Positions 14,881 through 64,000 of a stretch of DNA of 64,000 bases are shown in pieces; within the stretch, counting starts at the first letter, position 1; each line of letters begins with the position of its first letter. The DNA comes from Thuidium tamariscinum (lineage: Eukaryota; Streptophyta; Bryopsida; Hypnales; Thuidiaceae), in contig OZ019759.1 in the NCBI GenBank assembly GCA_947034885.2, positions 1,676,501 through 1,740,500 on the forward strand, in the 5' to 3' direction. The notes below the pieces were generated by a model that was not told the DNA's origin, ran no database searches, and worked only from the letters and a program-made list of their open reading frames with translations. The position numbers and the translations under genes were made by a program.

Positions 14881-15082
14881 CACTACAAGAAAAGGGGGTG
14901 TTTTAAGTATAATCCTAGTAGTAAAGTCTTTTAAGTAATGACCTCTAAGTACGGTTTTTAGTAAAATTTTACTAAAAAGATTGTCCTTTAAGAATTTTTT
15001 TACTAAAAACCTTACTTAAAGGTCATTACTTAAAAGACTATATTATTGAGACTATATTTAAAACACCCCTTTCTCTTGTAGT
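14881..15082. mobile_element. CACTA-type MITE, nearly fully palindromic, with CAA target duplication
   Basis: The element starts CACTACAAGAAAAGGGG and ends with the complementary CCCCTTTCTCTTGTAGTG. It is flanked by the 3-bp direct repeat CAA (14878-14880 and 15083-15085), the duplication size expected of CACTA transposons. The complementarity extends through most of its 202 bp (for example GGTCATTACTTAAAAGAC against GTCTTTTAAGTAATGACC), so a transcript would form a long hairpin. It sits about 0.7 kb upstream of the ANR/ARK-like start codon. Confidence 0.85.
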
Positions 15083-15085
15083 GCA

Positions 15086-42469: not shown

Positions 42470-45400
42470 ACTAAGTTAACCTTAAAGTGACTCGTGTATC
42501 GTTCCCAAAGGATTTGGTCGGAAGTTTACGAAAGACCGGAATACGTTAGTGGTTACCACAACAAAACCCAAACAAAGAATGATCCGGTCTCGGTCTAAGA
42601 TTTTCCTAGAATTTACTTTGGACCGTACATGAGATCAATCCTCTGACTGCAGAGAGTTTCTTCTCCACTTATACTATCATATTTAGAGTTTTCTTACTTA
42701 CTCACTCTGAAGATGGGAATGGAGATCGGAAACTAAGATTCTGGTCTGGTCCCTAAATAAATAACCAAGTGTAGGTTTAACCTCTGTAACAAGAGGGGTC
42801 TGCTCTTTTGGGCGTTTTAGGAAGGAAGCTTATTCCTACCCTTCAAGTTTTAAAGTGTCAGAAGTTCCACTGTAAAGAAAAATGAACTAATCCTAATCAG
42901 ACCGGAATACTTCACAACTAGACCGGAACTGATCCGGTCCAGCAGGTCACGCAAGCACTCTTGCCTATTCCTGACAAATACTACAATGACAGATTACTAA
43001 GTTAGTCTAAGTCCTGGCAGAACAAGGGCGGTAGCTTGCGTACGAGAGCTAGATTCCTCACTAGTCCTTCTTTCCTCTAAAGAGACCGGATCACCTTTCA
43101 GTTGGCATTTGGCCGGACACTCCCGATCTCAAACCCAGACTTTATGAGTATCTATCTCTACTGAGTACTCCCCAGACCTGTTCCGGAACACACTATGAGA
43201 TCCCACGCAAATTCCCTATCAAAACCGAGTTCACTTTAAGTCCAGAGACCGGATAAACTAGGCATCCGGGCACACACTCATCCACACAAGGCTGCAATCT
43301 TAACTGTCGCGACAAGACTTTGACAAGGTCCAACGTACATAGTCCACTTCAGAGTGAATCAGAAGGGTTCTGACTTGTATTTGCAACACAAAAACTTGTG
43401 AAAGTAAGATAACATAATGCGTGCCCGGATTCAATTACAAACCGGGTTTAAATACTAAACTACGAGTATAACCTAAAAGTGCAGGTGGAATCAATACCAA
43501 CCCCAGAGAATGCCACGTGACATTCCTTCACAACTTGGGCGGGTTGACTTCCACAAAACTCCAAACATACCAACAAAATAGGATCTCAGATCCTACAAAT
43601 CCGGATCCGGTCTAAGTTCAAAACTTCTACTCTAAATATAACCTGCTTTGGCTAAAGGTTAGCCGCCTTTCCTATCTACCTGATATCAATGCCCCCTACT
43701 TCCTCGGCCGCTTGATAGGCGAGGCACCTTTCCGGGCTGGTTGTTTCTTTCCGGCCGAAGACCGGTACATCTTGACTGGCTTGGGTCTTGGCTTGGCCTT
43801 ACCCCGCGCCTTGGCCCGACTCTTCTTTGTCTCTGCCAGTGCCTGGTCCGCGTTAGAGTACTGGTCCGACTCATCACCGGAGTCGGTCTCCTCCTCCGAG
43901 TCCTCATCTTCCTCTTCTGACTCATCGTCCTCCTCTTCTACCCGGGCCTTCCGCTTTACCGTCGGTGTCTCCGTGTTCTTCCTCTTGAGCAATCCGGTGA
44001 TGGGCGGATGGTGGATTGCCTTGCTTTGTGGAGTCAGCTCCTCCACTCTCTCAACAATCCGGACTGGGCCCTTGCTTGGCGATCCGGATCTAGATCTGGT
44101 CTTCACTATCGGGCGGACCTGAACCACCGTCTTCACCACCTCCCCGGTCTTTTGTTGCACAATCACCGTTGGTGACGATTTGCTTGGGGACTCGCCGACC
44201 AAGTCTATGAACTTGGTCTCCCTCCGTGGCGGCGAAGTCCCTCTGGCAACCTCCTGTAGCACACATGGCTCCGGTTCCGGTCCCTTAGACCTCTCAGGCT
44301 CCGATGCTTTAGGTTCTTCAATCCCGGTCCGTTGAATGAGTTCCTCCATCACTATCTCGGACTTCCTTTCTTCCTCCCTCGCAGGCTCGGTCACTACAGC
44401 TTCCTCCGCAACTGTAGCTGGTGGAGGCTGCGTCTTCGGCTGCTCCTCCTCCATCTTCTGCTTTTCCGGTCTCAAGATCGGAATGGAGCTCACCTGGACC
44501 TTGGTGACGACCGCTCGCCACTTCTCCAGTGCCGCCTGAGTGGAAAGTCGCTTCTCCTCGTCCAACTCCTCTTGCTTTTGGTGAAGCTCCTTCTTCAGGG
44601 CTGAGACCTGATTAGTTAGCCGGGTCACTTCTCCCTTGTCCCAACCCTCATGCACCTCCCGGATCAACTCCCCCAAGTTCTCCATGACTTTGGAGGGCGG
44701 AACATTGCCCAAGGCTCTGCACAACCCTTGCAATACCTTCCTCTCTTCTAGGTGGTGCCTCTTGAAGTCATCTAGGTTCTGAATGATCCTCATCAAGGGG
44801 GCCTGGTCCCAAACCAGATCTGCTCCTTGGGTCCCCACTGTAACTACAGGGTTCTTCAGTGGTAGGCTATCTCCCCCTACCTCTGGTTCCTCCTTTCTCT
44901 CCTGGAGTTCCCCCTGTTGCTCATCCTGACCCTCTCCCTCTAAGATATCATCATCCTGGTCCTTATCCGCCTCCGGGTTCTCTATGTTGTATTCAATCAT
45001 GGCCGCCCCCACCTCGTAGGCCTCTCTCTCATTCTCCTTTAAGAGGTCTAACAAGTGGTACAAGTGAAACAAGAATGGTGAAATGGGGGAGGGTTTTGAC
45101 TTCCCAATCCCATTCACCATCTTAAACATCTGGTCCCGCATCACTCACCCCCAATCTATCTTCCGGTCTCCCAAAAGCGCACCAAAAATGGTGTTGGCTA
45201 TGGTGACCGTGATCCTACTCGGCCTATCCAAGTTGAAGATTGCCATCATAAATTGAAGCAACCTCCGGTGTCTAAGCGAGATGCACTCCGTCACCGTGAA
45301 GCCATCCTTCAGGTTCGTGGGTCTCCGAAACTTACCCAGGTGGAATTTGTCCGTCCGAAAGGCCACCGCATCTCCGCCTTACTCGAACGCGTACACCTTG

Positions 45401-46110
45401 CGCCACATTGCCGCGTTCCACTCTCTAGGTAGCGCCTGGACCGTCCCCTTCCACTCGTTGGTCTGGTCGTCCAGCAACTCCACCACCATCTCCTCGTCCT
45501 TGAGGTTCCACGGACAAGCTAGAAATCCCTCGCACCCCATTTGCTTGAGGTCTTCCTCCAGCTCCAGCTTATCTTGTGCATTCGAGGGCATGACCGGATT
45601 GACATTCCGGAAGGCTAGAATCACATCCTCCTACACCTCACTCGCCATCGCTCGCTCCTTGCTTGCGCTAACTAGACGAGGTCCAACTTGATTGACCTAA
45701 CCGCGCTCAATAATCTCACCACAATTCTAAGGATGGTCACTCAAATCTGCACCAGACCGGATTGACAGACCGTCTCCCTCTTTCCTCTCTCTACAGACCG
45801 GATACGTTCTCTCTCTTTGCTAGAAGACCCTTTCTCGATTTGTGTGTAAGAAAGTGGCAGGACCTGGCCCTACTCTTTGGTCTTATACTTTCCCCCCAAC
45901 GTTAATTACTGACCGTTAGGTTTAAATGTTCCTGGTCACATGGGAGAGTTCCCGACGATCCCTAGACTCGGTAGCCACTCATTGCCTATCCGGTCTCGGT
46001 CGCTAGGTTGGTCGTGTCCGAATTCTTACTCTGTCCCTTAACGCATTTTTTCTATTTCCGATCTATGGTTTTCCGGTTTCCGGTCTTAGACCTAATTGTA
46101 TGTTAGACTA
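42470..46110 (-). mobile_element. Second non-autonomous LTR-type element relic (minus strand)
   Basis: A minus-strand copy related to the left element. It has a leader with a TATA-like AGTATAAGA motif near 45880, one long gag-like frame (45648-43696), and a tail down to about 42470 rich in the words GGTCT, CCGGT and GATCCGG. No pol motifs were seen. The element ends are not defined because I could not identify matching LTRs. Borders are set from the change in composition and the start of the neighbouring exon at 46363. Confidence 0.5.
43696..45648 (-). pseudogene. Gag-like protein, one 651-codon frame with three in-frame stops
   Basis: From ATG at 45648 one frame runs 651 codons to the stop at 43696. 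It is broken only by TAG (45631-45633), TAA (45379-45381) and TGA (45145-45147); the last 482 codons from 45144 are uninterrupted. The product has an N-terminal globular region (motifs MGCEG, TIANTIFG, FHLY), an acidic stretch, a Glu/Lys/Gln coiled-coil-like segment, then a Pro/Ser/Glu-rich and very acidic region (EEEDDESEEEDEDSEEETD), and a basic tail (KARGKAKPRPKP...). A basic, disordered C-terminus would fit nucleic-acid binding. It is a relative of the 627-2640 relic; no known domain was recognised. Confidence 0.6.
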
Positions 46111-46186: not shown

Positions 46187-48008
46187 CTAGATTGCCACAC
46201 TACTTCTGGCAATCTTCTCCAATCGCTTCCACACTTCTTCGTCAATGGTCACTGGACAACTTTTGCCTTCGTTGATGAGTGATATCAACTTTGTTCTCTT
46301 CCTCGTTACTGCTTTGCCTACCAAGGCTCTCAAGTAGTCTTCGTTCAAATCTCCTGAATACTCGAAATAACATCATATTCAATAATTTGGGAGTTTTCCA
46401 ATGAAATGAGAGCTTTGTAAAGTACTATAATTTATAAATGTAAGAATAATTGTTTGTTCATGATTTAAAAAATAAAAGACATTAATATACAATGGTAAAA
46501 ATAAATGGAGAATTACAAAATATCATGTATTAATTGCGAAGTTTAATATTGATGCAGTATATGTATTCACTATAAACAAACTTTTGTATCCCCGATGCCC
46601 ATCATTACACTCCTAGTAGCAAAGTCCCTCATCTCCACCAATTGTGTTAGACCTCCAAGTAGATTGCTTGAGAAAACAAAACCATTGTGATTGAAGAAAT
46701 CTAGTGGATGATGACCTTTGACATAGATGTAAGTACAAAAATTATAGAAACAAAAACATCTAAGCGCCACTGAGCATTAGCACAAACCACATTCCAAATG
46801 TTGACATTGAAAATGTCGTTTATGAAAATGCTTACAGCGGCGTCTAGATGTTTTTTTTTCTATAACTTTTGTTCTCACAGTTACATCAAAGATCATCATC
46901 CACTGCCTTTTTCAAACACCATGATCTTGTATCCCCAAGCTTCTAAATGAAAGACTAAGACAATCAATGAACATAAGGAACTTTAACTACCCAGCTTGTA
47001 ATAACTAAAGGCTTATATGCAATAGTGTAGATGTCCATTTTACAATTTATGAACACCAAGTACTTTGCTGGGGTAGTTATAGTGCTTTACAATAGAATTA
47101 TCATATACACTGTAAAAAGAGTCTTAGCTCTACATGAGCCTAATATGAAAACAGCTCAATATAACTACATGCCTAGGAAAACTAGTCCTACTCCAAAGGA
47201 CTATTGCGAGTATGACCTATTCTTCAATTTTTCCATTGCCTTCAATATCTCAGGACCTCGACTATATCCGATATGGCTTCTTATTTTTTCGCACACACTT
47301 TCACGCACTTGCTTCTTCAAAGACCTTTGCTCCCATGCATTCCATAGATGTTGAATGGAGTGAAGACAAAGTTCTCTATTATGTGTTTTACATTTTCGCT
47401 GTCCAACTGGCGCTGAAGGAGTGCACCTAGGTGGAAGAGGAGGAAAGCCACTTGAAGTAGTCCTCCATTGTTCATCACAACATTTGTTAGGCACCAATTT
47501 ACTGAATTCAGTGATAGGAATGGGTACGGACATGGCAAATCCATCAAGAACTTGCTAATAGAAGATACAAGGGGATGTCAGAATCTTAAAATGAAACAAA
47601 CAATTCTTCAAAACAAATGTTGTTTTCAAATAAAAGAATTCTAAATTAAAAAGGTCCATACCTTCATCACAGGCTCCACAAGAACTTCATCAACGTACAA
47701 CTTTCTTTGAGTCATGCCATTCAATGTAGAGCGTTCAAAAGGCAAGGTTGACCGTTGACGACATTTCAAAGGGGAAGGGGAGCTCATAGAACTTGGGCGC
47801 TTCCCACTATTAGCAGGACTATCTACAACACCATCGTCTACAAACATAATGGAGAAATCCATTGTGGATTGCGCTGTGGCTGCCGAATACATGATATGCC
47901 CCAATCCACTTTGTAAAATGGCAAACTGTCCATAGTTAGAGAATGAATCAGCAGAGGCAGTGCACTTGTTCTCACACTCATTTCCAAGAATTGAATTAGC
48001 ACGCACAC
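46187..48008 (-). pseudogene. Segments 6-8: C-terminal exons of the broken gene
   Basis: Exon 48008-47662 starts after a GTTTCCAAG acceptor and ends at AAG|GTATGG. Exon 47554-47201 contains PIPITEFSKLVPNKCC and a basic tail (KKQVRESVCEKIRSHIGYSRG). Exon 46363-46187 reads GDLNEDYLRALVGKAVTRK, then EEVWKRLEKIARSSVAI and stop. The last exon has a clear GTATTCAG acceptor. The inverted duplication at 46672-46934 lies between the last two exons. Confidence 0.45.
46672..46934. repeat. Inverted duplication (arms about 107 bp) of a coding-like segment
   Basis: The left arm (46672-46779, containing GTGGATGATGACC and AACATCTAAGCGCC) and the right arm (46828-46934, containing GGCGTCTAGATG and GATCATCATCCAC) are diverged reverse complements around a loop of about 48 bp. 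Both arms encode similar peptides on opposite strands: FYNFCTYIYVKGHHPLDFF (minus, left) and FYNFCSHSYIKDHHPLPF (plus, right). A transcript would fold into a long hairpin. Confidence 0.7.
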
Positions 48009-48180
48009 CTTGGAAACCAATAAAGATTGTCAAAAACATCAAACGTCTAAATTGATATATTACAAATTGGCATAGTCTAATGCTCACAAGGTACTTTGAC
48101 ATTACGCACAGTGCATGCATGTGCATGCAAATGGATATAGAATATGAAAATGAAACACATACAAGAGGGAATGGAAGACC

Positions 48181-49083
48181 CTAGGGCCCTATTAAATCAG
48201 CCGTTCTAGTATCCTTTGGCTTTTGACGGAAGAGCATAAAGACGCTTTCAACTTTGTCCATAGCATGGATTTCTCTATGCAAGTCCTTAAAAAAAATTTG
48301 TTTCTCTAAACCGCTTTCTTTCCACTCATCATAAATTCTATTGCTCCTTTCAATTACCTCTGCTATATCGTTGTACTCTCTTCTGTCAGTTTCCTCGATA
48401 AGAGACCAGCGACCAAATATGTTGTCTAGGCGGTAAGCATATAGTGAATGTGGCCTTGCAACGTGCAGACGTTGAATCCATGGAAGAAGGTGATCAATAA
48501 GGATTCCATCTGTGTTCTTGTCTCCTTCATGTGACCAAGGTTCAAACAAAACGACATTACTTGGATAGTTGGTAACGTGCCTTGATGGATTGACGTCAAC
48601 GATTATTGTATTGTGAAAAGAAAAATTGGATTTCTCCAACTCCACTAACTTGTCCAAAGGTTTGAAGAGCAAGTCTACATCTGTTCCATTCACCTTGTAG
48701 TTGAAAAAATGACCGCGTCCATCTCAACACTTGACCACATTGCATTGTTCTTCTCCGAAAATATTGAGAGGAGGCTCTATGCCTCTAAACAAGTTTTTCG
48801 TGATAACTAATGCATGCTTCCTTTTCATAGAAGACCACACTGATACATTCACGATTGTGGACAACCCTCTCAACACTTCTTGAAGGTGGGGCCTAATAGT
48901 GACCCGCTTGAAGCCAATAGAATGGGGTTCTATGTTTGAAGGAACATTGTAGGTAGCACTGTATCGTCTTTCTCGAATAAGATACCTCTTATCCTCACAT
49001 ATGCATAGTAGCCCATGCAAACCTAGAATGACATTAAACCATTTTTTAGTCACCCCAGATGTGCATGGGAAGAAGACACTCCC
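48181..49083 (-). pseudogene. Segment 5: FCP1/NIF-like phosphatase-type region, catalytic Asp replaced
   Basis: FCP1-homology (HAD) phosphatases use a DxDGT/DxNGLL motif near their start. Here the equivalent is ILGLHGLLC, so both Asp positions are lost. Other FCP1-like features follow in order: RPHLQEVLRGL, VWSSMKRKH, FFNYKVNG, FKPLDKL, IIVDVNPSRH, VLFEPWSHEGD and LLPWIQRL. A TGA (48724-48726), probably from a Trp or Arg codon, separates the halves in the same frame. If expressed it would most likely be a non-catalytic scaffold, but the stop and the lost Asp residues also fit simple decay. Confidence 0.6.
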
Positions 49084-49270
49084 CTTTGCCTCTCTTCTAT
49101 TCTGCTCAGAATTTACACCAAAATGGCTAGACAGTTAATTTGTTGCACTACCCACGTCATTTTGAGTATTAAAGGACTACCTACCCCATTGAAAAGAGTA
49201 GATAAAAATAAAAGATAAAAACATGAAAACGAGACTGATACAATGCATAGAGGGTAAAGAAGAAACTCAC

Positions 49271-49578
49271 AACATTGGCCACCTCATGTGAGGGAGATGG
49301 TACACATGCTTGAACGGGAACCTCAAAAGGTGGAATATTAAATTCCACAAGAGCATCGTCCACTAGATCGTTAACAACCTCAACCTCCTTTAAACTATGA
49401 ATAAGGCTTTCAACCTTATTCATCTTAGGTGAAGGAAGAGAGGTGACATTGATGACTACCACTGATGCATTCCGAAGAGAAACTTCTTCTGTGTCATTAC
49501 CATGATCAATATATGGAAGTGGACACTGAATTGGAGTTAACGACACTCGTAGAACATCGGTTTCAAGACAAAGTGTAC
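49271..49578 (-). pseudogene. Segment 4: linker exon before the FCP1-like region
   Basis: This exon is bounded by GCCGCAG and TT|GTGAGT. It is an open frame of about 100 codons beginning GTLCLETDVLRVSL, rich in Val and Ser/Pro, with no recognised motif. Confidence 0.4.
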
Positions 49579-49731
49579 CTGCGGCTGATGCAATTAAACA
49601 CACAATTCTGTTTGTAAGAAAAAAAGTATATTACATATTCTCAAGAGGAGAAATTTGATACAAAATTTATAGCGATAAGCTCCGATCTACCAACCTATAC
49701 TAACTATTAGATAGTCAAAACAACGGAAGGG

Positions 49732-49754
49732 TTTCAACTCGATTCGAGTTGAAA
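49732..49754. repeat. Palindrome TTTCAACTCGATTCGAGTTGAAA (intron copy)
   Basis: A perfect 23-bp palindrome around a central T, located in the intron between segments 3 and 4 of the broken gene. It is the best copy of a motif repeated through this locus. Confidence 0.9.
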
Positions 49755-49768
49755 TGAGGCTAAGAGAG

Positions 49769-50872
49769 TCACGGGGAACAACCTGGAGATTTATCAATCA
49801 CAGGGTCCTGTGATTGCTCGGTCTCATTCCCTTCCGCTGGGGTTGCAACATCTATCTTCTCATCCTCTACAACCAAGTTGTCACCTTGGACTTCAAGGGA
49901 ATTACCATTAGGAGTCGGAGCAGACTCTTCTTCCTTTACTGCAGATACTGAAGAAGGCTGAGTACATGTAGGCGGCGGTGGTTGCAGACTAGACGTTGGC
50001 GAAGGCTTCAGTATCTGCTTCTCTGAAGGATTCGAACCTCCAGACTTTTGCCGCTTCGAGCTGTCCGCTGATGTATATGCCTGATTGGCAATCATCAGTG
50101 GGGCTGAGTAACTGGCGGGATCAATTGCTTGAAGGGGCCTACCTCCAAGAAAGCTTTCTATCATCCCTGGCATGTCACGCATAAGATCCTTGATGAGCTG
50201 GCTATTCTGAGCTCTTGCCCGCTCATTCTCTTCTCTCATCTCTGCCTGAGATCGTGCATTCTCCTCCTTGTTGGCCTTGATCAACTCCATCACCCACTCC
50301 TTGTCCGGATTTGTCGATTGCTTCGCTTGCCTCTTTCGCTTCTTCGTTGGATGAGCAGCGAAACTTGGTGTCTGCTCTGCCAGAGCTGACATTGGTGTGA
50401 CAACTGGATGGGATGATGTGTCCATTGAATCCCGCACCTCGGCGGTTTCCACAATGACAGATGATGTACCTGCTTCATGTGCAACATCATTCCCTACGGT
50501 GTTTTCCGCAACATCTGTTGGAGGGTCTGTTAGCGGCTCGGGATCATGTGTACTCTCCTCAACATGCGTGCCCTCATCAGCTCCCTCTTTGTCTTCCTCG
50601 TCTTCCTCGTCATCCTCATCCGCTGCAAGGTTTATTGGAGTCTGATTCTAAGAAATAGTATGTCTAGCTTCCTCTTCTGGTGTCATCGGTTGCTTCCCCT
50701 TTCCAAAGCTTGAGGCATCCTTGGATGCTTTCTTCGGAAACTTTCCTGAATCCACACGGTAACTGGTATCCAAGAAGTCATCCTTGTCTAAATTCTCAGA
50801 TATAAGCGCAAGGGATGTGAAATTTTCTTTGTATTTAGAGTTCCCCAATACAAAGTGCTTGAGGGAGACCAT
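49769..50872 (-). pseudogene. Segment 3: acidic region, NLS-like cluster and coiled coil
   Basis: This starts after ATTGCAG with MVSLKHFVLGNSKYKENF. A single in-frame TAG (50648-50650) is followed by an acidic run (DEDDEEDEEDKEG), then a basic nuclear-localisation-like cluster (TKKRKRQAK) and an Asn/Glu/Arg-rich coiled-coil-like stretch (KANKEENARSQAEMREENER). The tail is Pro/Ser-rich. A nuclear, oligomerising protein is implied if it was ever expressed. Confidence 0.45.
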
Positions 50873-50977
50873 CTGCAATAAAATTTGAAGCATTGCATTC
50901 AGTCTTCACATTTCTATTCAGCATACATCAAGTTTGAATTCAACATTCATGTGTATGCCAACATTGGACAAATGTAC

Positions 50978-50999
50978 TTTCAACTCGTGTCGAGTTAAA
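50978..50999. repeat. Palindrome copy, AACTCG-TG-TCGAGTT core (intron copy)
   Basis: Reads TTTCAACTCGTGTCGAGTTA then AA. It is the same motif as at 49732 with one arm slightly altered, in the intron between segments 2 and 3. Confidence 0.8.
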
Positions 51000-51059
51000 C
51001 CAACAATTGAGCGCAAAGGAAACGTAAATGGGGGGAAATAGTGACACAGATGAACATAC

Positions 51060-52411
51060 CCAGGCAGCACAAATTATTTTCCCACCACCAAATATTGAAA
51101 GAACCGGATCGCTCCAAGCAGCAAACAATCCGAGAACTTCCAAGTAGAAATCCATCCTGAGTTCCGTATTATAAAGTCTGTATTCAACATCGTTGCTAGA
51201 CTTTGACTTCGAATATCTGCCATCCATAGACGCCTCAAACCTCCTCGGCAATTTTTTTACTGCTATCTTGGCCCCCTTCTTGATCAAGAAGATTTGCTTG
51301 ATAGACTTTTTAGCCTTTGATGTTCGCTCAGGTAGGTCTCCAATTCTCTCGAAGAGGGAAGGGATGTAATGGGCATAGTGAAGAAGATAAGATTCACCGT
51401 AGTCCAATGTGCGAATGTATTGGCGAATATCAAGCTCCATATCAGCATCCCCACAAATCCACAACCACACTTGTGGAACCACGTCTAGAAACCCTTCAGC
51501 TTCTTCAAACCATCTAAGAAGCCCTCAAAATAGGACTCGCCTTCCTTTAAAGAGCCTTTGTTGATGACCCCTGGAACATGACGGAAATCCATAACTGCAA
51601 GCTTCAATGTTGAGGACGTTGAATCCTCCCAAACACCACCATCCCATTCTCCGAAGTCATCTATCTCCAAATCATACGGCCTGTAGGACCCTGTTGCTTC
51701 GGACTTGCAGAACTTCCCTTTGCTGCCCAGGAAGATGTAGAAGAATTCAGCAGCATTTGGAGAGAGCTCGCTGATGCTTTTGTTCTTGTTGGAGGGCATT
51801 TTGGCTAGAGAGAAGAACTCCTCGGGTGGGCCAGACAAAAGAGTGTTCTTTGTAGCTTTTGTGACATTGTAGGCCTTCTTGAACTGCTTCCACTTGTCCT
51901 TTCGATAGTTGCCTTCATTGCTGAACAAGTTGAGGTTTTTCTTGAGGAAATGGAGTTGCCTCCTAATTATCTACTTCCTCTTGCACTTCTCTAGCCATTC
52001 TTTGGCTGTGTAGCAATCTGCAAGAACCCCTGAAACCTTCTTCATGGTCACCTTTGGATGCGATAGCTTTTGATTGGGTGTTCTACTAAGAAGATGCAAA
52101 GCTAACCTCTTCAAATCACCCTCGGAACAGTTCCCTAGCCATTTAAAGAACTCACAGGGTATGACCCCATCTTTCTCTTGATCCCAATTAGAAAGTTGTC
52201 TGTACTTTAGAAGAGAATCTGGGTCAACAAGCTTGCCTTGGGATTGGCAGGAGATCAATTCACTCCACAAATCATAAACAGGCTTCGACGCCATGATAAT
52301 CTTCAACTCGTTGTGGATGTCCACCTCTTTCTCTTTATTTTTGCTAATCTTACCTTGGTTTTTCTTTACATCAATCATGGAAAACCGAAGTTTGACAGCA
52401 GCAACAAAATC
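51060..52411 (-). pseudogene. Segment 2: Lys/Arg-rich region of unknown function
   Basis: This starts after CTCTTTGCAG with DFVAAVKLRFSMIDVKK and ends at a GG|GTATGT donor. TAG at 51971-51973 splits it in frame after WLEKCKRK. A frameshift near 51485-51500 shifts it once more, into the frame containing DIRQYIRTLDYGESYLL. The sequence is rich in Lys and aromatic residues, with no recognised domain. Confidence 0.45.
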
Positions 52412-52511
52412 CTGCAAAGAGTGTTCTTAAATCAGTTGGATATTTTGTTGGTACGAATCATAGAACATACTACTTCTACTCAAGTATATCATGGAGAATG
52501 GAAACATGCAT

Positions 52512-52532
52512 TTTAACTCGCATTGAGTTGAA
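52512..52532. repeat. Palindrome copy, AACTCG-CAT-TGAGTT core (intron copy)
   Basis: Reads TTTAACTCGCATTGAGTTG then AA. A degenerate copy in the intron between segments 1 and 2. Confidence 0.75.
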
Positions 52533-52585
52533 CTATAACACTTACATGAAATTTCTTCTTGTTTTGGGCTTCTGCTATTGTTCAC

Positions 52586-53986
52586 CTTGGCTTTTCTAAA
52601 ACTTTGCCCAACTCTGTTGCTTCTTTATCCGGTGGAGGACACCCCATCTTCTCCCACACATAGCGAGCACCAATGATATTGGTGGACCAGGTAGGCATGA
52701 AATTTTGGAAGTGGTTCACCCGATTGTAATAGGCTGAGATCTTACAAATGATATGGTCGTCTTTGTTCCAGACGATGAAGCACTCCCACTGTGCAAATTT
52801 CTCTGCTTTCAATTTGATTCGCGGCATCGTCTGCATCCTCTGTGATGCCTCAACTATGTGCTGACCATTCACCATATAGAATTTTCCCTTGCTCACCTCC
52901 TCGAAGGACTCAGGCTTACTCTCCAATCCAACTGGCATGACACATAATGTCATTTTCTTGTCGGGGTCTGGCATATTTAGGAAGAAGTTCAAACATTTCT
53001 TCACGCCAATCTCTTCTAGACCGCGAATATTCAAGTTGTCCGGTGGAGTCTCTAACTGGGCTATAGGGATGGTATATTTGTGCCCAATCCCAGGGACATA
53101 CGAATTGGTGCACTCCGCCCAGTACTCCTTATACGTTCTACACGATTCCTCATAGTCGATTTCCTTAACATCCCCATCGAAGTCCTTGGGTATATTAGTA
53201 ACCTCTGACACCATGCTCTTGTCAAGGATGTTTGATTTCTCCATGGATGCTGCGGCTTTTTTTGCTCCCTTCTTCACGAGGGGACCTGGTGTTCCTGAGG
53301 GATCACCCCTATTGAACTTGTCAGTTTTCTTTTTTTTCGTCTGGCTCTTCCCAGTCTCCAGAGTCCCCATTGCTAAAGAGCCCTGACTTGCACCCTGACT
53401 CATGTAGTCTCTTCTAATGGATAGAGGCTTCATCTCCTTGTTCTTTTGTATAAGCTTGAAGTGCAGCCTCTCGAACCCAAGTTTGATCTGATTGAGCCTT
53501 GATAGAAGTGCTTGTGGCGAAAGTAGCTTCCCATCCTTTCCTTCCCACTGCTCCTCATCAATGTGGATCTGTATATTCTTGTTCAGAGTCTTGTAGTCTG
53601 TGTTCACAAGGCTCCGACAGTACTCGGCTATGTTGAAGATTGTTTTCTTCGCCTCCACGACATACGAGAATAAGTATGGCTGAGACTAGTTAGGATCGAG
53701 AGTCTCACATGAGACAAAGATGGAGCCGTCCATTGAAATACTGAACTCAGTGATGGATTTAGTGAGGGAGACAGGAAGAGTTGTTGGGGAGCCTTGAATT
53801 TTGTTCGAAATGCCAGATGGTTTGTCATTGGCACAAGAACTATTGTCCAATATTCCACTTTCTCTGGTTCCAGCCACGCCCAACATTCCCCTAGCGTTTC
53901 TTCATCACCTAGTTCTTCCTTCTCATCCTCAGGAATTGTGTATCTTTGGTAAAGCACTTGGAGTTTCTTCACTTGTTCCTCCATTC
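52586..53986 (-). pseudogene. Segment 1 of the broken gene: GQH-motif protein
   Basis: This begins MEEQVKKLQVLY after an AG acceptor. A frameshift (about 53810-53880) and one TAG (53686-53688) break the first part. From 53658 the frame is open for 358 codons. It contains a Lys-rich linker (KKKKTD, KKGAKKAAA) and, near 52850-52885, the motif KFYMVNGQHIVEASQRM. A GQH/GxHR core after a short beta strand is reminiscent of the ParB/sulfiredoxin-like fold, but that is a guess from one motif. The end at 52586 is set by the donor G|GTGAAC; an alternative donor slightly upstream would fit the next exon's phase better. Confidence 0.45.
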
Positions 53987-54032
53987 CTGGAAAACAAATG
54001 TTAGAAATTTCTTGATTCCAGTGTCTCCTACA

Positions 54033-54540
54033 ATTTAACTCGATTGGAGTTGAATGCACATTTTTCGGTTTAATTGATTTCTTCGTTTCGATTTTTGTGT
54101 TCTCTTGTGGAAGAGTTAGCTTTGTTTGTGGTCATTTAACTCGATTCGAGTTGAATTGACCGATAAGATTAGTATTGGTCTGGATTTTTATTTTATTTCG
54201 AATTTTTGGAGTTTAGTTCCTTGAATTCGGACAATGATCGACTGTCCAACTAGAATCTATGTGAACCTCATACACTTTCTATATTATCAGCAGTTTTTTC
54301 TTTACTGTATTATCTCTCTTTAACTCGAATCAAGTTGAAGTGCTCTATGTGTAAGTTGTTTAAGAGTTTCTGCCTGTTTGGGATTGGCAGTATTTACAGA
54401 TTTTGTTATGCAGTGGCCACATTTCAACTCGAATCAAGTTGAAGTGTAGCAACTGCTTATGATGTACAGGATCATAGTTTCTAAAAAAACATGTTTAAGG
54501 GACTACGATCGAGTTGAATGTACATTGCTCGAGTTGAACT
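54033..54540. repeat. Cluster of palindrome copies upstream of the broken gene
   Basis: Full palindromes are at 54033-54055, 54134-54156, 54318-54340 and 54422-54443. Two half-sites (TCGAGTTGAA) are at about 54509-54518 and 54529-54539. The copy at 54134 is nearly perfect: its central AACTCGATTCGAGTT is intact and only the outer arms mismatch slightly. Spacing is roughly 80-185 bp. The cluster lies just 5' of the first confident exon, where a promoter or first intron is expected. Confidence 0.85.
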
Positions 54541-56138
54541 GACCTTTGGCATTGAAATTCACAATTATGCATGTCGGGAACCTAAAGTGGCTACTTACAA
54601 GAAGACAAGATAAGAAATTGTTTGGATTCCTGAAATCTCACACCGAGCGAACACCTGAATTACGAAGCTCCTAAATTTCTGTAACAAGCTGCCAGTAACT
54701 CAGTAAGTGACCAGGTAACAAGTGTCTTGGAATTGAGATCAGGACATGTTGTCAAGAGTATCATATCAAAGTTCAAAATTCGTTCTTAGACTAAAGTAGA
54801 TGAAATGTAAAAAAACAGCGCAAACGGGGAAAGAGGATGAAACATACGTGGTACGGGGAAACATACCTGCTAAAATCAAAATTGTGGACAAAAGAGGATG
54901 ACCACCGCAGTAAATTGCCTGGGCTCCAAAAAAAAAGCCAAATGCAGTGCACCACCAAGCTTCCCTTGTGCTTGTGCCTACATGAGCAACAATTGAATGA
55001 GAAAGGCTATTTCTAACAGCAAAAAAAGTTGTAACAGTGCTGATGTACTATCCGATAATCCCAAGCCGTAACCTGTATTAAAGTTTCCAGAACCTCACCC
55101 TTAACCTAGGAATCTATACACTCGTTGCTTCGAAGTGCTCCATATTGGGAGCCTCCGCATACAAGCACCTCCACCACCGTGAAATTACGGGTATGCTCCA
55201 ATGACAACATCACTGAGGATCCTACTGAAGGGTAATTTCACAGTCTAGCGAACCTTCACAAATTCAGGTGTCCCTAAGCACCCCCTAAAACCCTATACCT
55301 TGGAAATCCAGCCTTGGAAACTGGCGGAACTCATAGAATCTAAGTGCCACATGAGCCACAAAAAACCAGCCCTGCACTCTAAAATCCGGCAAAGCAAGTT
55401 TGGCCAAACTGAGCCTGCACCCTAGAATCTGGCCTCGCAAGTGTGGCCGAACTCACAAGTGTAAGCGGCGAATGAAAAGCAAAAAGAAAACCCTGCACCC
55501 TAGATCTAAGCGTCGAATGAGGAAAATGAAAATCCCCGAACCCTCAAATGCGGCCTCGCTATGCAAGTTTGGCCAGACTCCATGCATTGAATGACCAACC
55601 AAAAACCCTAACCACTAAAATATGCAAGAACAAACAACACCAATGAATTATGGAATTGAATGCACAAATCAACAGGGATGGGGAGAATACCTGTTGAATG
55701 AGAGGGAACGGAGAAGCTTCAAATCGCCCCATGGTAATGTCGTGCGTGAAGAAGAAACAGTTGCCAACCACCCAAAACCGGAAAAAAGGAAACCAAAGTT
55801 GGAACGCTCCTGAAATCACCTTGGCAGCCCGAACCGCAAGCACCAACGACGTAAACACAAAGCCCATAGATAAAGCTCTGAGATCCTAAACACTCTCTCA
55901 CTCACCGTTGAAGGAGACAAAGGGTTTCAGAATGCAGAGCCCCAAACGATTGGGGGAAAACTTCTTTTTTTAAAACTAACCCTCTCAACAAACAAAAAAC
56001 TTCAAGACCTGTGAAATGCGCGGCGAGAGAAAGCATCAAAGGCGGCATCAGAAAACACTACAGACGGCGCTCGCGACAGAAAGCGGCGAGGACGATGGCG
56101 GCGTAGTTTCTCAGCGAGAGAGAAGACCCTACACCCGT
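54541..56138 (-). other. Possible 5' exons and leader of a minus-strand gene
   Basis: The stretch 55900-56110 is GC-rich with gene-leader character (repeated GGCG and GAGAGA words). A minus-strand frame begins ATGGGCTTTGTG at 55867 (MGFVFTSLVLAVRAAK, hydrophobic) and is followed by AAG|GTGATT, a possible donor. A second candidate exon lies at about 54985-54880 after CATGTAG, encoding REAWWCTAFGFFFGAQAIYC and more hydrophobic residues before a GTATGT donor. The two do not join in phase with the simplest choice of sites. They may be the 5' part of the broken gene, a host membrane-protein gene cut by it, or chance frames. Not recognised. Confidence 0.35.
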
Positions 56139-56350
56139 GTTGACAAGGAGCCTACAACCATGGAAAGAGGGACCTAAAGCCATCAAGTACTTTTAAAAAG
56201 GTACATTGAAATAGGTGTATAAGGGGACCCATACTTATAAATTGTTGACGAGGAGCCTACAACCGTGGAAAGAGACACGTGAAGCCTTGAACTACTTTAA
56301 AAAAAGGTACATTGAAATAGGTGTGTAAGGGGACCCATACTTATAAATCA
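56139..56350. repeat. Tandem duplication, two units of about 105 bp
   Basis: Units 56139-56243 and 56244-56350 are near-identical. Both contain GGAGCCTACAACC, GGTACATTGAAATAGGTGT and GGGGACCCATACTTATAAAT. They lie immediately upstream of the putative minus-strand leader, so a promoter duplication is possible. Confidence 0.85.
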
Positions 56351-57990
56351 AAATTTCACTATATTGTAATTCATTCCGTGCAAGATAGAAGGTCCCTAAA
56401 CCAACTATATAATGGTGGATACTAAATGGTAGAGAAGTAAAAGATCTTGAAATATTTTTCAGTAAATTTTTTTTCAAATACAAATGAAGTAGGCATGTAA
56501 TCCACTGTTGTTGGAGCTTTTAGGAATTAGTGATGAATTATTCAAGTTAAAAAGAAATAGTCATTTAGAATCATCAGAAGTACCCACCTCTTCAATGTGC
56601 AGAGTTGATATATTTAAGTAAGAAAAATTTACCTCACATACATATGTATTTGTAATGCCCAATTGGAATTCACGCCTCCTATCTTACATGAATAGTTGTA
56701 CATCAATATTTATGGAAATATGTAGGGGTTTAGGATTTTGAGTTTAAACATTTGTGATTTGGGGAATGAGTTTCTTTAATTATTTGGTTGATGGTGTTGT
56801 TTAGTCTCCTTCATACGCCTATTCAATACAGTGAAGTAGAGAACGCTATTTTCTTCCGAAATTGCAATCTCATTCTTTTTTGTTGAATTCTAGAAAAATT
56901 ACTTCATCTTTGATAGGGCTATGTTTCTTAAATTAATAAAGTGTAAGAAGAAGAATCAAACTCCTATCAACATTATATTTAGGGTTGTCATTTCTAAAGT
57001 ACTGTCTTTTAAAAAAAACCTAGGTAAGCCAAACTTATTTGTAGTGGGGGTTGAACCTATAAAGAAGCAAGGCCTTTTGGGTGCCTAATAAAATATTGAA
57101 AATGCCAATTGTATAACAAACAAAAAAATTTATTGTATTTGAAGATACAATTATTAGACTTTCAACCTTTTTGACTTGAATTTTTAAGAGTTTAAAGTTT
57201 AAAGCTTTAAACTTGTATAAAAAAAGGAATTGCACCTAACAGACTTTTTTAAAAAAGTTTTAAGAACTTTAACTTTAAGTCTACGAAGAATTTCTTGAAA
57301 TAAATGCATTTAAGAGAGCACAAAAATTATTAACATCTATAGGGTAGAAAACAATGAAATTTTTACATTGAATTCTTCTTTCTAGAAAGAATAGTAAAGT
57401 TGGAGGAGTAATTTGTTAAGAACAAATTGGAAGGAATATATTGAAGAAAAAAAATTTAGGTGAATTTGTGACCCTTGAATGCCTAAGGTTTTAAAACTGT
57501 TTTTTATTTATGAAAATAAAACATTTGGTTTTAGTCATTCGTGATTAAGGAAATGAAATTTTATTCAAAAATGACAATTTCTAGATTTTTAAAGAGTTCA
57601 TTTTTTAATAATCACTTAGATATTGTACGGTTTAGGTGCATAAGAGTTGTGAGATTACAACAAGAGAAAGGTACATTTTCTATATTTAAACTGCTACTTG
57701 CTATCACCGTGTTTCCCAATTTTGCAAATAATTTTGGGTCGACAGTGGGATGTCACGTGTATCATTACAAACAATGATAGTACATTAACATGTATATTAA
57801 AAACTTACACTTCATTTCATTTGAAAAGCTAGTTAACCTATTCCAACCTAACTCTTGCAATTGTTGAAAGGCAATAAATTTTATGAGTACGGAGATATTG
57901 CAAATATGTTGAAGTCATGAATTGCATGTTTGAATTTTCAAAGGTGAAAAACTTGAACATATTTTTTTCTTTGATGTATAGACCATTTTC

Positions 57991-57995
57991 AAAGG

Positions 57996-58025
<30 letters not shown>
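57991..58025. repeat. (AT)n microsatellite
   Basis: About 35 bp of alternating A and T. Confidence 0.9.
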
Positions 58026-58030
<5 letters not shown>

Positions 58031-60840
58031 AAATTTGGCAAACTTCCATCTTTGCTTAAGGTATGAGGGTGTTGTCAAAGACCTATCAATAATTAATTAG
58101 GAATATCCTTTTTTCATTGAAAAATGATAGTTCAATATAGTAAACTGTTAAAGTTCCTTGAGAATAAATTTAGGAAGGTCAAAGCAATTTGATTGTCCAT
58201 ATGCAAATGGGCCTAAATTTCTAAGTTCTTTATGATATATGGTCAACTAGACAATGAAGGGTTAAAATGAAATGCATCATATTAATTTTTTGGTAAACAC
58301 AAATGCAATGTGCAAGGATTTCTTTAAGGAACTCAATTACATTCCTTGATAAAATATAATTCTATAATTATTTTATTTTATTTTTTGTAGAAGAAAATCC
58401 TTCTTGTATGTGAGATTTTAATATAACTTCAAATAGTTAATTGGTACATTAAAAACTTTAAGGCATGTGAAATTGTAAATATAGTGCCATCATGGTGCAT
58501 GACAATGGCATGAAGTTCATTCCGTGCCAACCTTTATACTATTCATACTAGTATAGATGAAATGACACTATCATGACCTATACTATGAAGAATTAGGCCT
58601 TCAATATGAAAATAACACCAAAACAATCTAAACAAATTTTTCTATAGTAATCATATTCTATACAATTTGTCATTTTTTCTGAGCTGCAATTCTAGATCCA
58701 TATTGTATGATTGATTGATTTTCATTTGTACTCTTCGGATTGGAGCTTGAAATTTAGTTGTAATGTGAATGTAAATATCTTTAATCCTAAAAATGGATTT
58801 AGAGAAATAAAATAACTATACAACATTTGAAGTGTCTCTAGGAAACAATTGTTCCTAAATCCAAAATGTAAATAGCCCTTAGGAGAAGTGCATGAGTTGA
58901 GAAAAGGTAAAATAAAAAGTTCAATATGTAGTGTTTAATTTGAAAATCCAGGGTTTTTTGCCAATAAAGATATTCTTAGCAATTGTAGTGGGTTTTCAGC
59001 TAAAATTTTATCTTCTTTCATGTTTTAAGACCTCAAAAAATGACACATGTCCAAGTACTAATTTGTCCCTAATGATTGCTCCTGTAATAGTGTCAGAAAA
59101 ATAATGGTGCCAAAGTAGTATCCTAAGTTTTTTCTCTTTGTCCTACAAATCATGATTACTACTTCATTTACAAAGGAGTACAATCATTCCAAGAGGTATT
59201 TGAAGGACATCAGTTCCTGTACTAGGTAGTTTTAGCCTTAAGCATTATTATAGCCTATGAAATTCAAATACATAGTGCCAACATTGCAAATATTTAAATA
59301 ATAAACACCCAACTTTGGTTTTAAGGGTTTGTATACCTCGTTTTTTTGAACTTTATATATTGAATAGGAAGTTGAAGGTTTAGGTAACCCTACATTCTTC
59401 ATTGTCATTTTTTGTACAAGTGCTTCAAGAAGCCTAAGCCATTTCCATTTATTTGTATTCGGGTTTTATATTTCATTACTTTTGGATTGAAGTTATCATT
59501 AATTTGAATTATTCCCATGTTTTTCTATTCATTATAGAGTTTGGCTTTAACTATTCTATAGTTTGAAAATATACCTTACAATAAATAGAATTCAAATGGC
59601 TCCAGTATTAACAAGATGTAATGTAGTGCATTACAATAACCTTGAACAGTAGTGAAAACAAAAACATCATAACATTCTTAATTAAGCGCACTTCGAAATT
59701 CATATGGTAGAGTAAGTGAACTACATGTATAATGAAGACATGTGGGAGTTCCCAGTCTTTGAATAAAACAAAGATATACGTGTATACACCGCCTATTTTT
59801 TGAGGGGGGAATTTTTTTGGTCAGTCAATTATTCAATACTTCATCATTACGTAATTTTTAATTTGAATTACTATAGAGGAGTCATTTATTACTTCAATTT
59901 TCCTAAACCCTAAATATATCATATACTTTTATAGAATAAAATTATAATTCTATTGCATTTTTGGTTTGCATTCCAGATTTTTACGAGTTACTGTACACTT
60001 TCCATTTCTGTTGCACTACTGTTGATTACACTTCTAATTTTCTGTCGAAGTACCATTGTTTTTCACTTCCTATTGTTTAGTGCACTCACATTCTGCAGGC
60101 ACTACCTATTTTTTCCCCCACTACCATTGTTTTTTGTTCCATATTTATTTTTACAATGACAATTTGTTAAAATATGTACTTCTTTTTATCCTTTTAATAT
60201 GGAGTCTAAGATTGTCAAAGAAATTGTTTTTTGAATTGAGACTTCGTATTTTTTTTATCCCTGTTGGAATGGTAGAAAGTGTGTACAAGAGGAACATGGT
60301 GTTCAACAAATTTATACTTCAAATTGACTTTCATCCTCTTTGTATTTTGTTTATAGTTTTAAAAATGTAGTATTGAAATTGGGCCTCCCCCTTTTTTTTT
60401 TAATACCTGCATGAAAAGGATATTTTGTGAACACTGTAGACCCTCAAATTTTATTTCCAACTTTGTTTCATCCTTCTAGTATGAAGTTAATGGGGAGGTT
60501 ATAGCGTAAGTCATAGTTTTACAAAAAGATTGTGTTCAAACCTACCTAAACTTGTAAATCCTTCGACCTTCTACTAGCCCAATCGGAATAGGTTGTAAAT
60601 GTGAAGTGAAGAAGCTCTAAACTTCTAAAATTGATGGTTAGATTCATAAAGCAGCTTTGAGATTTTAAAGCCAGTAGCACTAATTGAGAACCTTGAATCC
60701 AAAAATTCATGTAGGGGGGTTATTTTAGATTTTAGCTAAAGCAACCCATTATTCAATACCCTATAATTACAGTTTAAAGACATCAGAAGCCTTTTTAATA
60801 TACTAAATTACATCAAATTTAAACTTAATCTTTTGACCAA

Positions 60841-60860
60841 AACCCTAAACCCTAAACCTA
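60841..60860. repeat. Interstitial plant-telomere-like repeat
   Basis: AACCCTAAACCCTAAACCTA. It is too short to be a telomere. Similar two-unit runs, such as that near 63508-63520, are common in plant intergenic DNA and can act as telo-box motifs near promoters, but no gene adjoins this one. Confidence 0.7.
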
Positions 60861-61272
60861 TATTTGTTCATATGTATATAAATTTCACGTACTCTAAACC
60901 TAAATACATAACTCAATTTATTTACTCATTCAAGTCCTTTTTCTAAAATCTTTAATTTTTCAAAGGATGTGTACTTCAAAAGTGCTTTCATAATATCTTG
61001 TATTGCACGTGCTTGATAGGGTTAACACTTAGAACCTCAAAACATTTCATAAACTAAATATCCTTTTACATTTTTCTGGAATGTTCTATTCCTAATTTCC
61101 TCTAAAGTGATTAAACCCTACATGTGTTTCACCATGTTTTGCCAAGAACACTCTAGAACTACCAGATCCAACCCTCTAAACAAAATTCATTTTTAGACAG
61201 ATCTAACCATATGACCCTATAGTAAGGTACTTTGAAAATATGTAGAAATAATTTCTTAAATTTCCACCTTGT

Positions 61273-61915
61273 AGATTGCAAAACAACAGATTTTGAATCA
61301 TGAAGAACCCATTTCTTGTCCTTACAAAAATGTAGATAGCTAGGCTTCAATGGTAGCTCACTTTTGTACGAAAAGAAGTCCAAAATGGTTGTCAATAAAT
61401 TTTTTATTCATTCTTTTTGTCAAGTTGGCTACGTGCTTAAAAATTTCAAATCATTTGGAGTTGTACAAAGTATAGCAAAAACTAGTAAGTACAAAGACTG
61501 AGGTAGAAAATGATTTAAAATTTAAAAAAATAGTAATAGTTAATTAGTGAAATAGAGAATTCTCAATTCCAATGTTAGTAATGTTGTAATTGACAATCTT
61601 CACGTAATTAATGTTTTGGTGATTTTTCAAAAAAAATTAAAAATAGAATGAAATCATGGAATCTAAAGTTTATTCTGGATTAGAGATTCCATAACTTTCG
61701 ACAAACTACCCTCAAATTAAAACTCTAATAACTTTCATCTCATACATGAAAATGGAATGACTCAAAGCTTTCCAAGTATATAAAAATCTAATTAAAGAAC
61801 CAATTTCAAATTAAAAAAAAATTTTAAATGATTTTTGAAGAAGTTGAGGTATCTAGCACAAAAATTCTATCCACATTGTTAGAAGTTATGTAAATTGTTG
61901 GCCCTGCAAACTAGT
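61273..61915 (+). repeat. Dispersed repeat, copy 2
   Basis: Diverged direct copy of 28050-28690 (see that entry). The matching text starts at GTAGATTGCAAAAC and ends near GTTGGCCCTGCAAACTAG. Confidence 0.6.
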
Positions 61916-62147
61916 CCTTGAAGACATATTGTGTTTAGGGTTGAAGAAAAATAAATAAAACTCCATTTGTAGTGAGCTGCCTTAAATTGTTATGTTGTTA
62001 CAAAACATAGTATGAACATTGAAGGGCTAAGGGTTTAGGAAAAAAATACCCTTAAATCACTCAAAGAAATTAATTGTATAATTGTAGTTCTTTCCTTTTG
62101 TAATGTATTTTATAACTTGTTTTTGAAAATGTGCAAGTTTACAAGAC

Positions 62148-62151
62148 TTGC

Positions 62152-62223
<72 letters not shown>
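62148..62223. repeat. (TA)n microsatellite
   Basis: About 75 bp of almost uninterrupted TA repeats. Its length may be unreliable in the assembly. Confidence 0.9.
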
Positions 62224-62228
<5 letters not shown>

Positions 62229-63552
62229 ATTTTTAGTATATAAAGCATAGACATAAAATTCTAGTACAATCATTTGGAAATAATGATGTTGGCCTTAACC
62301 CTTGGCAAAATTGAAAGGAAAATGTAAACTCATTATTTATACCAAACTAATTTTTTTGCTAGATGTGAAGCTTTCATTTCTTCTATAATTCTATTCATGC
62401 ACACCCTTCAATAATAATTCAAAATGAATAAAATATATTATCTCTTGTATAAAAAATTGAACATTATTTAGAAGATAAAAGTGTTTGCCTAAGTTTGCAT
62501 ACTCATATGTTTTCATCATTGAGGTGAATGAAATTTCCAATGGAATCATTTTCAAACACTATTTTTATTCATTTTTTGAGTGAACAAAGTATAAGTGCCT
62601 TTACAAGGGTTTATCTTAGACACAAAGATTTATGGGTTCAAGCTTCAATTTCATTGATTTCTTTTATTCATCTTTTATTGAGTCCTATTTAAGGGTAGAA
62701 AAAATTCTTGTACTTCTTATAATAGAGTAGCAAAGTTCTTAAAGTTTAAGTGGTCTTTGCATACTATACCATATAACAATGCACTACACTAGTATAAAAA
62801 AGTGATGTATAAATTTCAAAATCTTTTACAACGTATATTGACAAATTATTGCATTGAAACTTACAACTTGAAGTTCTTGTGTTCAAAATCCTATTGAATT
62901 TTTCAAAAAAAATCCTACAATTTATTTCTTAACATACCCTAAACATTAGTATGTCCAAATAGGTATAACATTGAACCACACACCAAATGAGTATAACCTT
63001 AATGGAAAACTTCAAAAACTAAAATCATATATAGATTTGTTTATACATGCAAATACATTTAACCCTAACAAGCAATTCTGTTAGAGAAATCATTAAAGTC
63101 GCATTCAAATTTGAATTGTAATATTAATTTTTTTTTAAATGCTATAGTTTTCATAAAAACAAATTCATCTATAACTTTCTCAATATGTGTCCAACTTCAA
63201 TAAGAGAAGGCCTCAATTTAGAACCCTACATATAAAGTTACAAGAAAAAAATAAGGAACCATTACATTTTTTAATGCTTTTTACGCAATACTTTAACTTC
63301 TCTTGGCATTTTCTTGCTCGTGAACAAAAAATGAAGTAAAACTTAAACTTTTAGGAAGTCTATATCATTCTCAAATTTCAAAGAGGTTCAATAAATTCAT
63401 ATCGAAATTGGATAACAATCTAAATGTGCCTAAAATACCTAAGGCTCTTGTAGTGACTTTGGAACTTCAACGGCCAAAGTCCACAATCCAAGCCTACATC
63501 CTAGACAAACCCTAAACCCTGAACCGTTAAATTCATCATCCCTGCTGGACGT

Positions 63553-63769
63553 TAAATGATACCATTGAAAGTGGGCCCAACGAGGTACATTTCATTTTAC
63601 TAGGGGTTGACAAGGATTTGGGGTTTATATTTGTCTTGGGTTTTTTGGTATGTTTGAGGTCTCCTAAGGTATATGGGGGTCTTTGATTTTGAATCTTAAT
63701 TCAGAATTGGAAAGAAAAAAAAAGAATGCGAAAAAAAAAATTTCAACGGGGGTTTGATGGTATCATTTA
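63553..63769. mobile_element. Candidate MITE with short inverted ends TAAATGATACCAT
   Basis: TAAATGATACCATT at 63553-63566 is mirrored by GATGGTATCATTTA at 63756-63769. Weaker complementarity is seen just inside (ACTTTC/GGGCCC against GGGGGTTTG) and outside (CATCATCCC against GGGATGATG on the complement). No target duplication is obvious. Confidence 0.35.
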
Positions 63770-64000
63770 GCGCGCTCCCATCATCCCCATGAGAATTATT
63801 CCTGTAGAGCACTAAGCAAGTGATGTCAGTGAATTCTAATAAGGTTCAGTACATCTCCAAATTTCTGTCTAAAGAAAAAGGAAAACAAATCCAAAATTAA
63901 AACTTCGGAAGATGCCGTCTTCCTTAAATATATTAATGCGTTGCCAAACCTGAAAAGCCTGTTTATATGAGCCAATTCTCTAGTCACTGTTATTTACTAG

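Follow-up and report, generated by a model that had tools for sequence, protein, structure and literature searches.

Seven copies of a 21-bp palindrome lie in the introns and 5′ region of a broken gene, here called gene B, in a 64-kb stretch of the genome of the moss Thuidium tamariscinum (the window, C11:1676501-1740500; the searched genome comprises 363 Mb on 19 contigs). The gene is homologous to gene B of a two-gene DNA transposon of about 21 kb, and we propose that the palindromes are probably this transposon's operators, bound as a dimer by a protein of the element (the gene B product being the likeliest candidate) for self-targeted activation or anti-silencing. Each clade of gene B has its own palindrome in the same layout, which, as far as sequence comparison goes, strongly favors an element-encoded reader of the palindromes.

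Palindromes in the window

The seven palindromes are of the type TTCAACTCGANTCGAGTTGAA, with 0-3 mismatches each, and a new search of the window found them, along with two half-sites, where a preliminary description had placed them (Table 1). Seven matches to the 15-bp core (at most 3 mismatches) occur across the 64 kb, all of them between 49.7 and 54.5 kb. The same core search of shuffled windows gave a mean of 2.26 matches, and seven was reached in 1 of 100 shuffles. The palindrome GCAACTAGTTGC has no matches elsewhere in the window.

Introns 1, 2, and 3 of gene B hold one palindrome apiece and introns 4 to 6 hold none. The other four palindromes are 5′ of the start codon, so the preliminary description was right to place three sites in three different introns and four, plus the half-sites, upstream. 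Because the ATG is 2 nt past a splice acceptor, these four may lie within an intron of the 5′ untranslated region (UTR). The preliminary description had also seen none in an exon. We found no full palindrome in an exon of the window gene, but one further 9-bp half-site (CGAGTTGAA, at 52302) is exonic. Start-to-start spacing ranges from 101 to 1533 bp in the window copy, and in a copy on C1 it is 36 bp or more.

The carrier element

Copies of the carrier were located by palindrome matches elsewhere in the genome. Comparison of five copies by blast delimits a unit of about 21 kb (for example, C1:2904330-2925250) that is mostly 98-99% alike between copies. Terminal inverted repeats (TIRs; AACATCATATTCATTAATTTGG) are present in all four full copies that were read at both ends. 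Target duplications of 4 bp are exact in three of these (CAAT, ACCC, and TTGG) and agree at three of four bases in the fourth (TTTT/ATTT). The carrier is a DNA transposon whose two genes are divergent. One of them, gene A, contains an 861-amino-acid open reading frame (ORF), with its start missing, that matches DUF7869 (PF25273, E = 1.3e-44) and no other Pfam model at E ≤ 1; from its sequence, it looks like a transposase.

The window copy is 88.5% identical to the C1 copy over 7.26 kb, with more matches up to 57444 and at 63647-63999; window positions 57445-63646 have no match to the C1 copy. A further palindrome is found at C11:1741481, just past the window's end at C11:1740500.

Distribution of the sites

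Each of the five long copies has 14 sites at corresponding places (at most 5 mismatches): six flank gene A on its 5′ side, five do the same at gene B, and introns 1-3 of gene B hold one each. With at most 3 mismatches, there are 13 sites in each of the four copies counted. The six gene-A sites, seen in copies other than the one in the window, overturn the earlier view that the motif is confined to gene B. In the C1 copy, the sites begin 4.0 kb from one end and end 3.4 kb from the other.

Counts across the genome are a stronger test than those in the window: the pattern TTNAACTCGAMTCNAGTTNAA has 94 matches and its reversed control has none. Most of them (76/94) lie within 25 kb of a match to the NIF exon of gene B with at least 72% identity. 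Another seven are in a truncated copy on C2, whose sequence was read, one is 25.7 kb away, and six form two clusters on C5. In all, 90 of the 94 are near gene-B copies or clustered. The palindrome is almost absent elsewhere, whereas equal frequency there would, according to the preliminary description, have refuted its reading.

The sites also avoid coding sequence. At four gene-B loci (C1, L028, L029, and L030), all 41 sites (at most 3 mismatches) are outside exons, which make up 68% of the bases (P = 9e-21 if sites are independent, which is not quite true within one locus). Two of the 41 are borderline, as the exon ends are uncertain (L029 4771 and L030 5737). As for conservation, the 5′ flanks of the window and C1 copies are only about half identical, and four of the five C1 sites there are kept in the window copy at 19-20 of 21 bases, against a background mean of 12.8.

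Different palindromes in different clades

The NIF exon has at least 126 matches in the genome, which fall into groups of about 95-100, 86-91, 72-79, 52-53, 31-41, and 32-37% identity. We labeled clades from percent identity and match ends alone, and a few matches are unplaced. One stretch 5′ of the NIF exon was then read from each of four groups. Three of the four hold gene-B exons 1-3, and each of these is rich in its own 21-bp palindrome: TTCAAGTAGATACTACTTGAA in clade IV (L028), TTTAGGTCGANTCGACCTAAA in clade V (L029), and TTATCNTCGANTCGANGATAA in clade VI (L030). In the remaining stretch (L027, 79% identity), the NIF exon stands alone within its 7.5 kb and there is no palindrome. The homologues with open exons (C1 and these three) carry in their introns either the palindrome or their clade's own version of it; its absence there would have refuted the preliminary description.

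Eight of ten further 5′ regions contain their own clade's palindrome or a near variant (TTTAGCTCGANTCGAGCTAAA in L033, and a mixture in L032). Six of the ten further members were also partly read across exons 1-2, with a threshold of at least 8 of 10 paired positions. Clade palindromes were found between exons 1 and 2 in four of the six (L041, L042, L043, and L045) and after exon 2 in four (L041, L043, L044, and L046). In L041, the intron-1 palindrome begins at the exon end.

With at most 3 mismatches allowed, the matrix of clades by motifs is almost diagonal. Off the diagonal stand the two clade-V variants, which resemble each other; the GCT variant, with one match in each of the rows for C3, C6, and the window; three clade-I matches in a clade-V member on C2; and a clade-I copy on C3 (C3:4428211-4454927) that is flanked by 13 and 1 clade-VI palindromes. 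Those 14 sites are apparently there because the clade-I copy is inserted in a clade-VI copy.

A clade-V element has a gene-A homologue (65% identical over 864 columns) with six clade-V palindromes on its 5′ side and two past its 3′ side (655531 and 655654). So between lineages, the arrangement of sites stays the same while their sequence changes at gene A as well as at gene B, and lineages differ in their palindrome at all or nearly all sites together. The clade-V palindrome has 156 matches genome-wide and its control has none. Among 100 of these 156 sites that were listed, 73 are nearest to a clade-V NIF match (within 25 kb), 3 are nearest to a clade-IV match, and none is nearest to a match of clades I-III or VI.

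Two side observations concern the letters themselves. The palindromes of clades I, V, and VI have in common a CGANTCG core, which contains GANTC; the clade-IV palindrome lacks it. Upstream of a distant relative (L040, C10:3093901-3095200), TAATGGTGTACCT is repeated about every 50-70 bp in place of palindromes.

The gene B protein

The only Pfam model that the gene-B exons match above its cutoff is NIF (PF03031). Exons 4-5, with the TGA read through, score 37.2 bits (E = 3e-9) and a second gene-B match scores 37.0 bits, against a cutoff of 21.8. Phosphatases of the NIF/FCP1 type have the catalytic motif DxDx(T/V). By eye, we found GLHG in C1 and DLNG in L029 and L030 at its place instead.

The C-terminal half of exon 2 in the homologue L029 is predicted to adopt a circularly permuted beta-class DNA methyltransferase fold, and the predicted fold is structurally similar to CcrM, whose recognition site is GANTC. 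Catalytic motif IV of the beta class is (D/N/S)PP(Y/W/F). In the alignment, nine of ten rows cover the end of the strand (placed by eye), and in place of DPPY these nine read DFR, DFC, DLR, or DVR. Searches against solved structures by sequence returned weak rows only, among which TIM50 for the NIF part (E = 0.03) and arginine methyltransferases for exon 2 (E = 0.13-0.15) agree with the later domain assignment.

The likeness of gene B to ParB consists of a motif and one weak profile match (phrog_723, E = 0.074, in one of five members). Pfam and NCBIfam gave no match to a ParB-type fold, and a model of exon 1 from a single sequence (predicted local distance difference test score, pLDDT, of 33.4) was too poor for a fold assignment. 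No relatives were found in three scans of viral-contig proteins or in two tblastn searches of phage records, a pattern scan of viral contigs gave two single matches, and Rfam gave no match at gathering scores. Overall, gene B resembles a DNA-reading protein of prokaryotic type that has been put to new use, with a ParB/DGQHR-like motif (on weak evidence), a methyltransferase fold of the beta class in which the catalytic motif is changed, and an NIF-phosphatase-like end.

Proposed mechanism and alternatives

Both genes of the element have clusters of sites on their 5′ sides, and further sites lie in the first introns of gene B. We propose that a protein encoded by the element, most likely that of gene B, binds these sites as a dimer. 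Binding would most likely recruit chromatin factors or keep them out, so that the promoters and gene bodies of the element stay active. Such a protein would recognize copies of its own lineage but hardly anything else in the genome, and palindrome and protein would change together as lineages diverge. We favor activation or anti-silencing because the closest known system, VANC21, does so. The preliminary description had already suggested that the element's own protein may bind the sites. Their specificity to the element and the clade-specific palindromes speak for this, while binding, binder, and effect are still what we infer from these patterns.

Several observations weigh against our proposal. 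First, gene A could equally encode the binder. Second, the sites do not track the element perfectly: 4 of the 94 TTNAACTCGAMTCNAGTTNAA sites are isolated, 24 of the 100 listed clade-V sites have no NIF match within 25 kb, and 2 of the 10 further 5′ regions (L034 and L040, whose places were guessed from other members) have no such palindrome. Third, conservation in the 5′ flank is moderate, as 7 of 539 circular shifts equal it, and one of the five C1 sites there has no counterpart in the window copy. The intronic sites (19, 19, and 20 of 21 bases, against a background mean of 17.0) are hardly above their introns. Fourth, the best Foldseek E value for the methyltransferase fold is only 7e-3, from a model with a mean pLDDT of 56.9. 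Finally, private repeated motifs also occur in two other repeats of the window and are therefore not unusual here.

A more specific version, which we offer tentatively, is that gene B is a captured phage-type fusion of ParB and a methyltransferase that has lost catalysis and serves in self-recognition. It would load at parS-like palindromes next to both genes, spread along the element, and hold off silencing, and lineages would rewrite protein and palindromes together. If so, they would do this to avoid activating rivals, and the dead methyltransferase domain would read the GANTC in the CGANTCG core.

Autorepression, in which the element's protein on the 5′ and intronic sites limits its own expression and that of the transposase and keeps copy number low, seems unlikely to us. 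It predicts the same anatomy, with sites at both genes, and operators in the 5′ region and first introns would suit a block to transcription. However, replacement of the sites across a whole lineage makes more sense if the lineage thereby escapes cross-regulation or silencing.

It is rather improbable that the reader is a host transcription factor or silencing protein. In animals, there are host zinc-finger proteins that track transposons and silence them, and our candidate binder is itself a proposal. But a host factor fits poorly with so few sites (the four above) being isolated from gene-B copies or clusters, and a separate palindrome for each clade would need as many host factors.

The sites are also poor candidates for internal binding sites at which the gene A or gene B protein assembles a transposition complex, a role that subterminal repeats serve in En/Spm. 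The two palindromes past the 3′ side of clade-V gene A would fit this. The distances of 4.0 and 3.4 kb from the ends in the C1 copy show that the sites are not subterminal, and some are intronic.

It is very unlikely that the palindromes act as hairpins, either in RNA folded near 5′ splice sites or as DNA cruciforms. The sites are inverted repeats, and the first site in intron 1 lies about 0-20 nt past the exon end at six loci (C1, L028, L029, L030, L041, and L042; exon ends by homology). Also, position 6 of the clade-V palindrome covaries (21/27 paired versus 14.1 expected), but this is explained by the pooling of GGT and GCT members. In clade VI, where position 6 is variable, the halves are paired in 11 of 39 sites versus 14.0 expected. 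Because these halves vary independently, the sequences argue for two half-sites read by a dimer and not for a hairpin, in line with the dimeric symmetry noted in the preliminary description. An asymmetric site (CTCCA..TCGAG) is likewise retained in both the C1 and the window copy. The idea of an extended hairpin was rejected, as flank pairing beyond 10 bp is not above the control (52 versus 43.6, standard deviation 5.8).

That the palindromes are functionless remnants, left by small insertions or by duplication of a single sequence, is scarcely credible: the C1 gene-A sites at 2908783 and 2908923 do share long identical flanks and look duplicated, but four clades have the same layout with different letters, and the four loci have no exonic copies.

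Features of the window copy and its surroundings

The window's gene B is on the minus strand. Judging from its several stops and frameshifts, it belongs to a dead copy (Table 1). Splice sites were assigned by eye from the sequence, and exon ends are approximate.

Table 1. Features of the element copy in the window.
Feature	Position	Strand	Remarks
Decayed copy of the ~21-kb two-gene transposon	46369..64000	-	Extends beyond window end
3′ TIR, AACATCATATTCAATAATTTGGGA	46369..46392	-	1 mismatch to TIR of other copies
Gene B exons 4-5 (about 49273-49580 and 48181-49101), NIF-phosphatase-like end	48181..49580	-	One internal TGA
Palindrome TTCAACTCGATTCGAGTTGAA, intron 3 (about 49581-49783)	49733..49753		Counterpart C1:2921860
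Gene B exon 3, acidic, basic KKRKR stretch, low complexity	49784..50873	-	One internal stop
Palindrome, intron 2 (about 50874-51059)	50979..50999		Counterpart C1:2920587
Gene B exon 2	51060..52415	-	Stop and frameshift; from ORFs, splice signals, homologue fold
Palindrome, intron 1 (about 52416-52546), about 14 nt from donor	52512..52532		Counterpart C1:2919050
Gene B exon 1, ParB/DGQHR-like N-G-Q-H motif	52547..53985	-	Stop and frameshift; ends approximate; from ORFs, splice signals, homologues
Palindrome, probable 5′-UTR intron or 5′ flank	54034..54054		Counterpart C1:2917527
Palindrome, 5′ region	54135..54155		Counterpart C1:2917408
Palindrome, 5′ region	54319..54339		Counterpart C1:2917219
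Palindrome, 5′ region	54423..54443		Counterpart C1:2917138
Two half-sites CGAGTTGAA, direct orientation	54510..54538	+	20 bp apart (54510, 54530)

About 250 bp from the element's 3′ end is an imperfect fold-back (window 46621-46984; 74% inverted self-match over 368 columns), which C1:2924617-2924998 matches in both orientations. This large fold-back is a possible source of hairpin RNA. Between genes A and B, tandem repeats of about 177 bp (C1:2912698-2914438) form an array whose length varies among copies.

A gag-like repeat adjoins the window copy (42534-46085). All 16 of the window's occurrences of GACCGGA lie in it, partly in coding sequence. Its ORFs around 45148-45666 (minus strand) are related to 534-1123 (plus strand), and the 5′ TIR of the C2 copy (C2:6927200) is flanked by sequence that resembles this element. 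Another stretch (10425-15344) has 14 of the window's 16 occurrences of TAGTTGCA, some of which form tandem arrays at 10.55 and 12.4 kb.

Comparison with known systems

We found no literature on this element, DUF7869, or the palindromes, in a search whose scope left out preprints and most subscription papers. Among known systems, En/Spm has the TnpA protein, a transposon-encoded DNA-binding regulator, and 12-bp subterminal repeats, which occur in CACTA elements. The moss element is similar in having repeated sites within itself and a proposed DNA-binding regulator of its own. It differs in that its sites are palindromes, some in introns, and not subterminal repeats, and in that the protein is unrelated.

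Bacterial ParB reads palindromic parS sites. Proteins with a ParB-CTPase fold fused to N6_N4 DNA methyltransferases are described as frequent in phages (PMC12704722). Gene B resembles these in its suggested domain order (a ParB/DGQHR-like motif, then a beta-class methyltransferase fold) and in its mobile-element setting. Insofar as those fusions are described there, it differs in belonging to a eukaryotic transposon, in its altered motif IV, and in its extra NIF-like end.

The closest likeness is to the VANDAL elements of Arabidopsis, which are Mutator-like elements (MULEs). As two reports describe, VANC21 binds non-coding VANDAL21 DNA at a motif specific to that family, silencing is lost, and VANC6 has other motifs than VANC21 (PMC5735166, PMC10398659). 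Tandem repeats of the bound motif are found upstream of VANA21 and inside introns of two genes, VANC21 and VANB21 (PMC5735166). The preliminary description knew of no family with intronic operators, and this is such a family. As in VANDAL elements, so far as these accounts go, a short family-specific motif is repeated in non-coding DNA, including introns and 5′ regions of genes that the element itself carries; the motif differs from one related family to the next; and it is rare in other transposons. In contrast to the dense, same-orientation arrays described for VANDAL, the sites here are dispersed 21-bp palindromes, and the TIRs are well kept while those of VANDAL are described as degenerated. 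Also, the match of gene A is to DUF7869 instead of a MULE transposase (VANA) model, and gene B has only NIF above the cutoff and no domain of the VANC type. With other proteins and a motif of another form, the element does not belong to the VANDAL/VANC system, and the likeness is one of mode of working.

If our proposal is right, VANDAL/VANC would have an independent counterpart, a second example of self-addressing by transposons via private motifs in introns and promoters, with other proteins and another transposase. Since a single genome contains four lineages whose palindromes are distinct and whose partner genes can be read, it provides a natural panel for studying how a DNA-binding protein and its operator shift specificity jointly, and for asking whether divergence among transposon lineages serves to evade silencing by the host or to evade one another.

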